Assembly (NCBI RefSeq): GCF_030816115.1 | Contig: NZ_JAUSXQ010000001.1 | Span: forward strand, 1,364,001-1,428,000 | DNA: 64,000 nt | Direction of reading: 5' to 3' | DNA from: Chryseobacterium sp. W4I1 | GTDB lineage: Bacteria > Bacteroidota > Bacteroidia > Flavobacteriales > Weeksellaceae | Shown here: in pieces, positions 60,065 to 63,275 of the stretch | How the letters are laid out: every line of letters begins with the position of its first letter | How positions within the stretch are numbered: position 1 is the first letter of the stretch | Position numbers and translations under genes: made by a program | Notes under the pieces: model-generated | The model's input: only the letters and a program-made list of their open reading frames with translations | Database searches by the model: none | What the model was told of the DNA's origin: nothing

Positions 60065-61150
60065 ATGGAAAATTTTATCGTATCTGCAAGAAAATATCGT
60101 CCCCAGCAGTTTGACACTGTTGTAGGGCAGTCTCATATTACAGATACGCTAGAACACGCTATTGGTGAAAATCAGCTGGCTCAGGCCTTACTTTTCTGTG
60201 GTCCAAGAGGTGTGGGTAAAACTACATGTGCCAGAATTCTGGCCAGAAAGATCAATGAAAAAGACGGCTCTGTTTCAGAAGACGGCTTCGCCTACAACAT
60301 CTATGAACTGGATGCGGCGTCCAACAATTCCGTGGATGATATCAGAGAACTGATAGATCAGGTCCGCTTTGCGCCTCAGGTAGGTAAATATAAAGTATAT
60401 ATTATCGATGAGGTGCACATGCTGTCTTCTGCAGCTTTCAATGCTTTTCTGAAAACACTTGAAGAGCCGCCGGCACATGCCATCTTTATTTTGGCAACTA
60501 CAGAGAAGCACAAAATAATTCCCACTATATTATCACGGTGTCAGATTTATGACTTCAAGAGAATCGTCATTGAAGATATTCAAGGACATTTAAGAAACAT
60601 CGCTCAGAAAGAAAATATCCAGTATGAAGACGATGCTTTATATCTGATCGCTCAGAAAGCAGATGGAGCCTTAAGAGATGCACTTTCTATTTTCGACAGG
60701 CTTTCCACCTTTTCCCAGAAAAACATCACCCTGGCCAAGGCTGCCGAAGTGCTCAATATTCTGGACTACGACCAATATCTCAATATTGTGGATCTGGCCA
60801 AAGAAAACAAAATTCCCGAAGTACTTTTTGCTTTTAATGATATTGTAAAAAAGGGATTTGACCCCCATATTTTTATTGCAGGATTAGGAAACCATTTCAG
60901 AGATCTCATGATGGCCCAGAATGCAAGGACTGTAGAGCTTATTGAAGTCGGGGAGAGGACCAAGGTGAAATTTGTAGAGCAAAGCCAGAAATGGAATGCC
61001 CAGCAGCTCATCGATGGTATCGAGATCTGCAACCATGCGGATATCAATTATAAGAATTCCAAAAATCCAAGACTTACAGTAGAAATTGCATTGATGCAGC
61101 TGTCTTCCCTGACAGCTAATTTAGGCGATACTAAAAAAAAAAGTTCTTAA
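60065..61150 (+). CDS. dnaX: DNA polymerase III gamma subunit (0-frame product of dnaX)
   Basis: 361 residues: clamp-loader AAA+ ATPase. Walker A GPRGVGKTTCAR, Walker B VYIIDEVHMLS, sensor 1 region LATTEKHKIIPTILSRCQ, and the gamma domain III to about 350. The four-Cys zinc module usual between Walker A and B is absent, as in other Flavobacteriia. The frame stops at 61148 (TAA, then TAG) directly after a run of ten A residues (61133-61142). A -1 slip on this run joins the frame to a further 206 codons (61141-61761) that encode the tau tail. Confidence 0.95.
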   Translation: MENFIVSARKYRPQQFDTVVGQSHITDTLEHAIGENQLAQALLFCGPRGVGKTTCARILARKINEKDGSVSEDGFAYNIYELDAASNNSVDDIRELIDQVRFAPQVGKYKVYIIDEVHMLSSAAFNAFLKTLEEPPAHAIFILATTEKHKIIPTILSRCQIYDFKRIVIEDIQGHLRNIAQKENIQYEDDALYLIAQKADGALRDALSIFDRLSTFSQKNITLAKAAEVLNILDYDQYLNIVDLAKENKIPEVLFAFNDIVKKGFDPHIFIAGLGNHFRDLMMAQNARTVELIEVGERTKVKFVEQSQKWNAQQLIDGIEICNHADINYKNSKNPRLTVEIALMQLSSLTANLGDTKKKSS

Positions 61151-61177
61151 TACTAGCCCCGTTTCTCAGTGAGAAAC
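61133..61177 (+). promoter_or_regulatory. dnaX -1 frameshift signal (A10 run plus hairpin)
   Basis: In the 0 frame the site reads ACT AAA AAA AAA AGT TCT TAA. Slipping one base back on the A10 run gives ..AAA AAG TTC TTA ATA and an open frame to 61761. A hairpin GTTTCTC-AGT-GAGAAAC (61161-61177) follows 18 bases after the run. Both ribosomal -1 slippage (as in E. coli) and transcriptional slippage on the A-run (as in Thermus) are possible. Confidence 0.7.
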
Positions 61178-61761
61178 AGGAAATAAAGATCCCCGAAAAA
61201 GCTCCGGAGAAAAAAGAACCCATAGCAGAAAAACCTGCTCATCAGCCTGAACCCAATCAGGAAATAACTGTAAAGACTACCAAGCCATTATCAAGACAGG
61301 GAATATCTTCCGGTTTCAGCATCAATTCTTTCCTGAATAAAGAAGAGAAAGTAGTAAAAGAAGAAACCGTAGCCGTAAAAACAGAAAACCTTCCTCAAAA
61401 CCATTTTACAGATACAGATCTGCAAATGGAATGGAATCTTATGCTCAAACAGCTTCAGAAAAGAAACAGCTTCATCTTTAATGCTGTAAAAACTTTTAAG
61501 CTGATAAAGGCTGAAGAAAATACCATTAAAGTTTTGTACCCTTCAGATTCTGCCAAGGTAGAATTTGATAAGATTGCTGGCGAATTCTTCAACCATTTCA
61601 AAACAAAGGTTCACAACCACAGCATTATTGTAGATTACCAGCGTGACTTTGATAACCTTAAGATTGAAGTGGTCACCAAGAAAAAAATCTTTGAAAAATT
61701 TATCGAGAAAAATCCTTTATTAAAAGATCTTGATGATCTGATGAAATTTGATCTCACTTAA
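61141..61761 (+). CDS. dnaX: tau-specific C-terminal part of dnaX (-1 frame)
   Basis: 206 codons with no stop in the -1 frame. A Pro/Glu/Lys-rich linker (EKAPEKKEPIAEKP..) leads to a folded domain (MEWNLMLKQLQKRNSFIFNA, KVLYPSDSAKVEFDKIAG, VDYQRDFDNLKIEV, ending MKFDLT) like the C-terminal part of Bacteroidota DnaX proteins. It has no start codon near its beginning (first ATG at 61426), which argues that it is made by frameshift as part of a tau protein of about 565 residues, not as a separate gene. A sequencing error in the A-run is the alternative. Confidence 0.75.
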   Translation, partial: KFLILAPFLSEKQEIKIPEKAPEKKEPIAEKPAHQPEPNQEITVKTTKPLSRQGISSGFSINSFLNKEEKVVKEETVAVKTENLPQNHFTDTDLQMEWNLMLKQLQKRNSFIFNAVKTFKLIKAEENTIKVLYPSDSAKVEFDKIAGEFFNHFKTKVHNHSIIVDYQRDFDNLKIEVVTKKKIFEKFIEKNPLLKDLDDLMKFDLT

Positions 61762-61785
61762 GTTTTTGTATTTATCGCAATTTTT

Positions 61786-61816
61786 TTTTGTCAGACTAAG
61801 TTTTTTTATATCTTTG
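61786..61816 (+). promoter_or_regulatory. promoter of the aromatic leader/DAHP synthase transcript
   Basis: TTTG near 61788 and TATCTTTG at 61809-61816 with about 18 bases between them give a consensus TTTG-N18-TAnnTTTG promoter. The transcript would start near 61822, about 370 bases before the enzyme gene, leaving room for an attenuator. Confidence 0.65.
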
Positions 61817-61897
61817 TCAAAGAATTTTGTTAAAAATAAGTTTTTGACAAAAACAAATCAGATTTAGAAGCTAAACAAACAGAAGTTTCAGAACTCA

Positions 61898-62026
61898 GTG
61901 GAAAAATTATCACTCCCATATCTGTCTCATTTTGCACCCGCTAATTACTTTAGCGGTTATTTTAGTTTTTCTGCTTTCTATTATAGAAATTTCAGAACGT
62001 ATTATCGATTTTATTGGTACTGCTAA
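61898..62026 (+). CDS. aromatic-amino-acid leader peptide (attenuator)
   Basis: 42 codons from GTG to TAA with 7 Phe, 9 Tyr and 1 Trp (17 of 42), including HFAPANYFSGYFSFSAFYY and ..TYYRFYWYC at the end. Such a run is not expected by chance and is the hallmark of a leader peptide whose translation reports charging of tRNA-Phe and tRNA-Tyr. It lies between a consensus promoter and the DAHP synthase/chorismate mutase gene (62193), the entry step to these amino acids. No in-frame ATG is present; GTG is the only good start after the upstream TAG. Stalling at the C-terminal aromatic cluster would change folding of 62049-62148. Confidence 0.75.
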   Translation: MEKLSLPYLSHFAPANYFSGYFSFSAFYYRNFRTYYRFYWYC

Positions 62027-62048
62027 CTGAATTTCTTTCCAAAAAATA

Positions 62049-62148
62049 CAGGAGAATTAAAGTCCTTTTATTTTCCTGATTCCTTTAAACCATTTTGAAC
62101 GGCATTTTTTGAAAAGATTTATAAAGTAAATTTTATAATGAAAGGACT
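62049..62148 (+). promoter_or_regulatory. alternative RNA hairpins after the leader peptide
   Basis: Hairpin 1: CAGGAGAATTAAA pairs with TTTTATTTTCCTG around a GTCC loop (62049-62078; one mismatch, one G-T pair). Competing pairing: AGTCCTTT (62061-62068) with AAAGGACT (62141-62148). The two cannot form together, as expected for an attenuator. Hairpin 1 lacks a clean T-run, so which form stops transcription is not settled by eye. Confidence 0.5.
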
Positions 62149-62192
62149 ATTGCTGTTAATTCAAAAAAATATAAAACAATAAATTTAAAAAT

Positions 62193-63275
62193 ATGAATTT
62201 AAAAGATGTAAAAAACGAGTGGATCAATGAGCTTTCACAGCCATTAATGATCGCAGGACCATGCAGTGCCGAAAGTGAAGCTCAGATGCTTGAAACTGCC
62301 AGAAGAATAAGAGAAACCAATGCTCAGGTGCCAATTTTCCGTGCAGGAATCTGGAAACCACGTACAAAGCCGAATGGTTTTGAAGGAGTAGGAGTAATCG
62401 GTCTGAACTGGCTGAAAAAAGTAAAAGAAGAATACGGATTCAAAACTGCTACAGAAGTTGCCAACGCTCACCATGTATTTGCTGCTTTGGAAGCGGATGT
62501 AGATGTTCTTTGGATTGGCGCTCGTTCTACAGTAAACCCGTTTACCGTGCAGGAGATCGCAATGGCTTTAAGAGGAACTGACAAACCAGTATTCGTTAAA
62601 AACCCTGTCAATCCGGATCTTGCTTTATGGATTGGCGCTTTAGAAAGACTTTTAGGTCAGGATATCAAAAATTTAGGTGTGATCCACAGAGGATTTTCAA
62701 CTTACCAGAAAACAAAATATAGAAACAATCCAAACTGGCAGATTGCCCTTGATTTCAAAAGCCAGTTCCCCAATATTCCAATGCTGATAGACCCTTCCCA
62801 CATCTGTGGAAACAGAACCGGTCTTGCAGATATTACACAGGAGGCACTGAATGTAGGATACCAGGGTGCGATCATTGAAAGCCACTGCAACCCTGATGAA
62901 GCTTGGAGCGACGCAGCACAGCAGATAACTCCTGAAGTACTTGCAGAGCTGATCGGGAACTTAAAAGTAAGAAACTCAGGTTTGGCAGGATTCGATAATG
63001 AAATGGGAAGACACAGAACCCTGATTTCTGATTTGGACTTCCAGCTGATCGAACTTCTTTCCCAAAGAATGAAGATCTCTGAAAAGATAGGGAAGCTTAA
63101 AAAAGAGAATGATATTGCTATTTTCCAGCCTGAAAGATGGAAAGTAATCACAGAATACGCCAATCAGAAAGCGAAAGAGACTGGGATGTCTCAGGAATTT
63201 ATTGAGAAAGTTTTCAAAGCGATACATGAAGAATCTATTGAAGTACAGAACAGTATTATGATCGATAGAGCATAA
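62193..63275 (+). CDS. bifunctional DAHP synthase / chorismate mutase
   Basis: 360 residues. Residues 1 to about 265: class I DAHP synthase (LMIAGPCSAESEAQMLETA, FRAGIWKPRTKPNGFEGVG, WIGARSTVNPF, VFVKNPVNPD, MLIDPSHICGNR, GAIIESHCNPDEAWSD), which joins PEP and erythrose 4-phosphate. Residues about 275-355: AroQ-type chorismate mutase (LDFQLIELLSQRMKISEKIGK, ..FQPERWKVI, ..EESIEVQNSIM). The fusion couples entry to the shikimate pathway with the branch to prephenate, so Phe/Tyr feedback makes sense. Expression is probably controlled by the leader peptide at 61898. Confidence 0.95.
   Translation: MNLKDVKNEWINELSQPLMIAGPCSAESEAQMLETARRIRETNAQVPIFRAGIWKPRTKPNGFEGVGVIGLNWLKKVKEEYGFKTATEVANAHHVFAALEADVDVLWIGARSTVNPFTVQEIAMALRGTDKPVFVKNPVNPDLALWIGALERLLGQDIKNLGVIHRGFSTYQKTKYRNNPNWQIALDFKSQFPNIPMLIDPSHICGNRTGLADITQEALNVGYQGAIIESHCNPDEAWSDAAQQITPEVLAELIGNLKVRNSGLAGFDNEMGRHRTLISDLDFQLIELLSQRMKISEKIGKLKKENDIAIFQPERWKVITEYANQKAKETGMSQEFIEKVFKAIHEESIEVQNSIMIDRA

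Follow-up and report, generated by a model that had tools for sequence, protein, structure and literature searches.

A conserved aromatic leader gene with predicted ribosome-selectable RNA pairings ahead of the DAHP synthase/chorismate mutase gene in Chryseobacterium

The locus described here lies in a window of 64,000 nucleotides from the genome of Chryseobacterium sp. W4I1, whose positions are used throughout. A spacer of 431 bp separates the upstream stop codon (61761) from the start of the regulated gene (62193), with dnaX (60065-61150) as the upstream neighbor and rsgA as the downstream neighbor. A preliminary description of this DNA had named the gene behind the leader DAHP synthase/chorismate mutase, and the Pfam matches confirmed this; NCBIfam models matched the product below their cut-offs. 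Among the best 80 of 426 loci, the closest protein matches to this locus were from Chryseobacterium (98-99%). The gene, the promoter, and the 5' half of the leader comprise the following features.

62193-63275, plus strand: regulated gene, DAHP synthase with a C-terminal chorismate mutase (PF00793 and PF01817 above the Pfam cut-offs).
61788-61816, plus strand: promoter, TTG (61788-61790), 18 nt, and TATCTTTG (61809-61816); recognized from the sequence, box kept in relatives.
61823-61851, plus strand: P0, hairpin where the RNA presumably begins (z -7.3 in the blind arm-swap scan).
61863-61891, plus strand: P0b, hairpin directly before the leader start codon (blind scan, z -6.6).
61898-62026, plus strand: leader gene MEKLSLPYLSHFAPANYFSGYFSFSAFYYRNFRTYYRFYWYC, GTG start, TAA stop; frame intact in relatives, with codon-level selection.
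62000-62023, plus strand: control codons 35 to 42, YYRFYWYC (nonsynonymous fraction 0.43, expected 0.87).

Upstream of the spacer, a run of ten A's (61133-61142) stands where the dnaX frame ends, and the upstream product seems to go on in another frame, past that end, to 61761; its second part (61426-61761) had no Pfam match. In 80 relatives, the longest A-run near the dnaX end was of 10 in 58, 11 in 21, and 9 in 1, its position being unchecked in two short loci (L016 and L037). By analogy, the run looks like a site of programmed slippage in dnaX.

For comparison, we assembled leaders from the window, from 80 Chryseobacterium loci (the best 80 of 426), from two loci of other genera (L135 and L137), and from 39 of 40 stretches of genera g1, g24, and g47, leaving out L169, which is cut by a contig end. 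Removal of 4 identical sequences from these 122 leaders left 118 distinct ones. The consensus promoter claimed earlier is present as a Bacteroidota-type promoter: a TAnnTTTG box lies 300 to 420 bp before the gene in all 122 leaders and has undergone 1.0 change per site on the tree. TAnnTTTG is given as the sigma-A consensus of flavobacteria in excerpts of PMC9723704. Between 62049 and 62190, where a promoter would have spoken against the attenuation design first put forward, the window has no TAnnTTTG, and a scan of the plus strand from 61000 to 62700 found no sigma-70-like site, although that scan does not cover promoters of Bacteroidota.

The 42-codon GTG frame with 17 Phe, Tyr, or Trp codons was found as described, and only 1 of 1000 dinucleotide shuffles of 61823-62192 contained a frame as rich in aromatic codons (17 or more). 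The frame is intact in all 118 distinct leaders, with a length of 41 to 52 codons. At the aligned start, ATG stands in 65 leaders, GTG in 47, and TTG in 6, and the tree requires nine changes at the first base of this codon and none at the second and third. Furthermore, codons 35 to 42 have undergone 53 synonymous and 40 nonsynonymous changes, a nonsynonymous fraction far below the value expected if every single-base change were equally likely. By the same measure, codons 1 to 13 drift (0.85 versus 0.78 expected), and the fractions were 0.68 versus 0.80 for codons 14 to 20, 0.73 versus 0.79 for codons 21 to 29, and 0.61 versus 0.82 for codons 30 to 34. Thus, the aromatic codons are kept in relatives, as had been anticipated, and in codons 35 to 42 they are selected at the amino acid level. 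Phe, Tyr, and Trp all occur among the last 15 residues in 113 of the 118 leaders, which fits a step common to the synthesis of all three amino acids. It is true that A+T-rich codons favor Phe and Tyr, so that an aromatic-rich frame could in principle arise by chance in an A+T-rich spacer without any regulatory leader; however, the shuffles, the retention in every leader, and the codon-level selection leave this explanation virtually no probability, and we regard it as refuted by conservation. Judged from these sequence comparisons, 61898-62026 is a genuine leader gene, and the sensor half of the leader is well supported.

No second copy of the leader was detected in the same genome, where the next match had an E value of 1.24. 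One leader (L189, genome G216) is an outlier, with 10 aromatic residues and YYRFYWYC lost but the frame kept; its R1:R2 pairing (see below) is rewritten and still pairs at -7.6 kcal/mol, and both alternative pairings are retained. It is perhaps a decaying or retuned copy.

From the leader frame onward, single folds and the alignment gave the following layout of RNA elements.

61938-61956, plus strand: P1, hairpin CCGCTAA/TTAGCGG inside the frame at codons 14 to 20 (swap z -8.8; mean -10.0 kcal/mol, n = 118).
61985-61995, plus strand: R1, AGAAATTTCAG, codons 30 to 33, pairing with 62027-62036 (R1:R2 swap z -4.8).
62027-62047, plus strand: R2, CTGAATTTCTTTCCAAAAAAT, beginning one base past the stop codon and pairing with R1 or R4 (3.1 changes per site).
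62049-62078, plus strand: Pb, hairpin of variable sequence inside a three-way junction, the terminator of the preliminary description (swap z -9.6).
62082-62102, plus strand: Pc, weak second junction hairpin, followed by CATTTTTTG (swap z -3.9).
62104-62120, plus strand: R4, ATTTTTTGAAAAGATTT, pairing with R2 and closing the three-way junction (3.2 changes per site; swap z only -1.9).
62119-62138, plus strand: Pd, A+T-only hairpin TTATAAAG/TTTTATAA behind the junction (swap z -3.2).
62141-62152, plus strand: partner segment of 62057-62068 in the window and in a small number of relatives (pairing energies in representatives).

R2 has two alternative partners, R1 within the frame and R4 some 80 nt downstream, and R2:R4 encloses Pb and Pc. 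When compared with shuffled sequences (five per sequence, only base counts kept), the energies of P1, Pb, Pd, R1:R2, and R2:R4 were each below the shuffled median in 118 of 118 leaders, and that of Pc in 88. They were below the 5th percentile in 116 leaders for P1, 84 for Pb, 89 for Pd, 104 for R1:R2, 117 for R2:R4, and 1 for Pc. Swapping arms among 43 representatives, from which kinship is not fully removed, weakened P1, Pb, R1:R2, Pc, and Pd; the swap z of R2:R4 was matched by 66 of 2000 permutations, and four other arm combinations, two of them chosen as controls, gave values from -0.7 to +1.0. Pairings of R2 with the 5' arm of Pb (z +1.0) and of R1 with R4 (z -0.2) were rejected. In a blind scan of 2485 segment pairs from 28 representatives, with windows up to 62191 and L189 left out, P1, P0, P0b, and Pb came out on top, 13 pairs lay below z -4 and 2 above +4, and R1:R2 reached -3.7; R2:R4 and Pd were absent from the 60 best pairs shown.

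The slowest-changing parts of the leader were R2, R4, the promoter box, the start codon, and R1, and among the fast-changing ones were P0 (15.5 changes per site), Pb (13.2), and 62140-62160 (14.0). The stem of P1 is kept while its letters change, from CCGCTAA/TTAGCGG in the window to TCTGTC/GACAGA in L135, and in L066 and L078 the peptide is altered at R1, yet ten unbroken R1:R2 pairs persist. RNAalifold predicted no pair on an alignment of 47 of the 118 leaders (L189 left out), and no covariation exceeded the null in a tree-based test of the MAFFT alignment. We consider the RNA structure model well supported but not proven.

Several other features of this RNA were noted. The 5' arm of P0b (61863-61876) also covaries with the T-rich stretch after P1 (61963-61976; z -4.5), a pairing that possibly limits leader translation. 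A CTATTG-like motif (62147-62152) after Pd is common to many of the leaders shown in the alignment, and no partner or function was found for it. Pd is doubtful as a DNA operator, because its spacer, as read from the alignment, varies by a few bases among species, and the ATG at 62138-62140 is doubtful as a second leader start, being missing in the sequences of genus g24 shown. A described Rfam family, such as a T-box or a riboswitch, was ruled out as the identity of the element, since no match reached the gathering score in the 64-kb window.

The earlier model had placed an intrinsic terminator at 62049-62078 and an antiterminator at 62061-62068/62141-62148, as in textbook attenuation. Both pairings can form in the window: 62049-62078 folds as a hairpin, 62057-62068 pairs with 62141-62152 at -14.1 kcal/mol, and the latter pairing has a swap z of -2.7. 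In the window, 62057-62068 falls in the loop of Pb, and Pb and the second pairing thus share hardly any base. Mutually exclusive pairings do exist, but as R1:R2 versus R2:R4, which that model missed, and not as the pair it named. Moreover, at least 6 T's in the 8 nt after the Pb stem were found in only 6 of the 118 leaders, and the second pairing reached -8.0 kcal/mol or better in only 7 of the 43 representatives (the window, L013, L016, L030, L036, L047, and L066), the other 36 having -6.4 kcal/mol or weaker. We therefore reject these two elements as the general mechanism. Besides, the trp and his leaders of the same genome (see below) have quite different, strong terminators, and textbook attenuation in this form is very improbable.

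We further predicted how a ribosome on the leader would affect the two pairings of R2. A ribosome has a footprint of about 31 nt, and about 31 nt were masked accordingly; for codons 29 and 36, all RNA 5' of the ribosome was masked too. Over the 118 leaders, the mean pairing of R2 with lower R4 rose from 0.22 without a ribosome to 0.47, 0.48, and 0.49 with codons 29, 36, and 38 in the A site, and was 0.38 at codon 40 and 0.02 at the stop codon. The corresponding means for R2:R1 were 0.52 without a ribosome, 0.00, 0.00, and 0.03 at codons 29, 36, and 38, 0.25 at codon 40, and 0.00 at the stop codon. R2:R4 exceeded 0.5 in 15 leaders without a ribosome, in 64 to 72 at codons 29 to 38, in 44 at codon 40, and in none at the stop codon. 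When the RNA extended only to 62090, R2:R1 exceeded 0.5 in 114 leaders. The window itself shifted more weakly, the lower R2:R4 helix reaching 0.28 at codon 29, 0.31 at codon 36, and 0.07 at codon 38 and R2:R1 remaining at 0.63 at codon 40, which may be due to its extra pairing of 62057-62068 with 62141-62152. In these predictions, then, ribosome position would choose between mutually exclusive pairings. Eight aromatic codons precede codon 28, and a stall there would leave R1 free.

Taken together, the aromatic leader probably acts by ribosome-controlled attenuation, in which the first step shared by all three pathways responds to the supply of charged Phe-, Tyr-, and Trp-tRNA. Transcription would start near 61823, and P1, a probable pause hairpin with a T-rich coding stretch directly 3' of it, would hold RNA polymerase until the leader ribosome catches up. 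With ample aromatic amino acids, the predicted pairings suggest that the ribosome reaches the stop codon and covers R2; after it leaves, R2 would pair with R1 and leave R4 free, presumably giving low expression. In a shortage, the ribosome would halt on an aromatic codon at about codons 28 to 38, cover R1, and leave R2 free, so that R2:R4 could close the three-way junction with Pb and Pc, with high expression as the likely outcome. In E. coli pheL, trpL, and hisL, hungry codons likewise pick between mutually exclusive pairings, and segments 3 and 4 form a terminator with a U-tract. Thus, the leader appears to work like ribosome-mediated attenuation with a new architecture: of the design first proposed, the translated aromatic leader and the predicted ribosome-selectable pairings stand, and the terminator and antiterminator as named do not.

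An intrinsic terminator, consisting of a stable stem and a T-tract, was sought from the frame to the gene by a strict scan of the 118 leaders, and none was found after the frame at a conserved place. Hits under the strict criteria lay only at P1 inside the frame (68 leaders) and near 62020 (5 leaders). P1 is doubtful as a starvation-sensing terminator, because an early-stalled ribosome would let P1 form and so lower expression in shortage. Since a terminator was sought and not found, we do not class the leader as a transcription attenuator of the trp/his type, and its output is not a textbook intrinsic terminator. The candidates for the output are Rho, a branched terminator, decay, and translation.

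The trp and his leaders of the same genome are the closest known systems for comparison, and their presence indicates that the organism uses leader peptides.

L231, 2094-2171, minus strand: trp leader upstream of trpE, from the genome of the window.
L232, 1156-1206, plus strand: his leader upstream of hisG, from the genome of the window.

The trp leader, MFNMSNNNWWWLSNSSSGLEVLSCC, lies behind TAnnTTTG and is followed by a strong terminator with eight T's; the his leader, MKPNFLTLHHYYHHLC, is followed by a strong hairpin and a T-tract. By the rule of three Trp in seven residues, trp leaders were found before 17 of 18 trpE loci of Flavobacteriales (of 26 matches, 8 weaker ones were set aside; the locus L235 is short), all 17 with terminators, and the 18th locus had only two Trp and a terminator too. 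Leaders with clustered His and strong terminators preceded all 19 hisG loci, which were all of the matches and included four from other families. The aromatic leader resembles these leaders in its TAnnTTTG promoter, its short frame, its clustered control codons (WWW in trp and HHYYHH in his, the latter also near the stop codon), and an untranslated stretch before the gene. In contrast, the trp and his leaders are shorter, and 52 to 75 nt after the stop codon they have a T-tract behind a strong hairpin (-10 to -18 kcal/mol), whereas the aromatic leader shows no such terminator by the same scan and has P1 in the frame and a three-way junction. It is thus built differently.

A second kind of terminator can nevertheless be envisaged, in which A6 (62041-62046), Pb, Pc, and U6 (62105-62110) together form a branched, noncanonical intrinsic terminator that releases the polymerase unless a stalled ribosome interferes. 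The T-tract after Pc is present in 111 of the 118 leaders and is little changed, although a mere helix could covary, and its distance from the stop codon is about 80 nt, as against the 52 to 75 nt of the trp and his leaders. On the other hand, Pc alone has a mean stem energy of -0.9 kcal/mol, far weaker than the trp and his terminators, four leaders (L186, L187, L188, and L191) are without the T-tract, and R4 would be made after the decision point, so that R2:R4 could not antiterminate directly. Release at a branched terminator is therefore unlikely.

Alternatively, the stalled ribosome and the R2:R4 junction might alter the translation or stability of the full-length mRNA rather than its termination. 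The structured 5' end (P0) would be in keeping with such control, as would the outcome of the strict scan after the frame. However, about 54 nt separate Pd from the A-rich region ahead of the gene's ATG, for which the blind scan up to 62191 showed no strong covarying partner, and this makes translational or decay control rather unlikely.

Conservation of the nonaromatic residues Arg37 (114 of 118 leaders) and Cys/Ser42 (103 of 118) raises yet another explanation, an arrest peptide like TnaC, whose chain ending in RFYWYC would arrest at the stop codon on a free aromatic amino acid or a pathway metabolite and mask R2. The position of R2, whose first base follows the stop codon so closely, accords with this idea, as does the predicted loss of R2:R4 with a ribosome at the stop codon. 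Yet a weak pairing signal (61998-62011/62013-62026; z -3.2 in the blind scan) means that RNA could explain Arg37, the his leader likewise ends in control codons and C-stop, and F and Y are interchanged at several positions of the peptide. An arrest peptide is accordingly quite unlikely here.

For ribosome-controlled attenuation, we tentatively favor an output, held with rather less than even confidence, in which transcription would terminate prematurely in the untranslated stretch past the stop codon and the folded junction would prevent this. Such termination might be Rho-dependent or might be aided by a pause at Pc and its T-tract. In tnaC and similar leaders with a Rho-dependent output, what becomes of the untranslated stretch depends on a ribosome close to the stop codon, without an intrinsic terminator. 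The aromatic leader likewise shows no intrinsic terminator after its frame by the strict scan. For a Rho-dependent leader, a C-rich, G-poor stretch with little structure would be expected; after the stop codon here, C averages 15.9% and G 11.4%, and C exceeds G in 117 of the 118 leaders.

As for distribution, we built a covariance model spanning R2 to Pd on a structure drawn by hand from the window; it matched 26 of 120 genomes of the family, once each and in 3 of 33 genera, although stricter filters may lose weak matches. A search by aromatic content and by eye found the motif in none of 28 loci from other genera of the family and in none of 20 loci from g41, g26, and g22. One locus (L141) has an aromatic-rich frame end without the motif. 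At several motif-free loci, a frame that by eye resembles the dnaX end stops 11 to 83 bp before the gene. Five genomes from other families carry the DAHP synthase gene and pheA on one contig, 2 to 4 kb apart. Among 11 of 24 pheA loci, Phe/Tyr-rich leaders, for example MATNRFYFSNNFYFFFSRS, precede pheA in 4 of 5 genomes of other Flavobacteriales families (L289, L291, L292, and L295). These share aromatic codons with the aromatic leader and differ from it in the gene they precede and in a strong terminator between leader and pheA at 3 of the 4 loci. None of the six Chryseobacterium pheA loci in this set has a clear leader with a terminator; one of them (L293) has an aromatic-rich frame without a terminator. 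We infer that control may have been rebuilt beside dnaX in one lineage.

The view that this design is little documented in Bacteroidota is partly right. According to excerpts of PMC9723704, there are strong indications in Flavobacterium psychrophilum that leader peptides attenuate amino acid operons, and the 5' elements of pheA and hisG are conserved in flavobacteria, that of pheA in Flavobacterium psychrophilum among them; the trp, his, and pheA leaders found here add to this record. For Bacteroides thetaiotaomicron, excerpts of PMC7366714 mention small frames within long 5' UTRs. Among the matches listed in our literature searches, no paper dealt with this leader or with any DAHP synthase leader in Bacteroidota. 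The chance is nearly even that we are dealing with a sensor of three amino acids and a three-way-junction switch on DAHP synthase, working without an intrinsic terminator and stemming from one lineage that has the gene behind dnaX, in organisms whose trp and his leaders have textbook terminators.

The leader offers a compact and strongly conserved test case for gene control by ribosome stalling in Bacteroidota, for which the textbook trp and his attenuators of the same cell provide natural controls. Should the output prove to be something other than intrinsic termination, the entry of the shikimate pathway would be governed by a leader-peptide switch acting through another effector, namely Rho, decay, or translation. 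Such a switch would respond to all three aromatic amino acids at the first step that they share, instead of to a single one at a branch.
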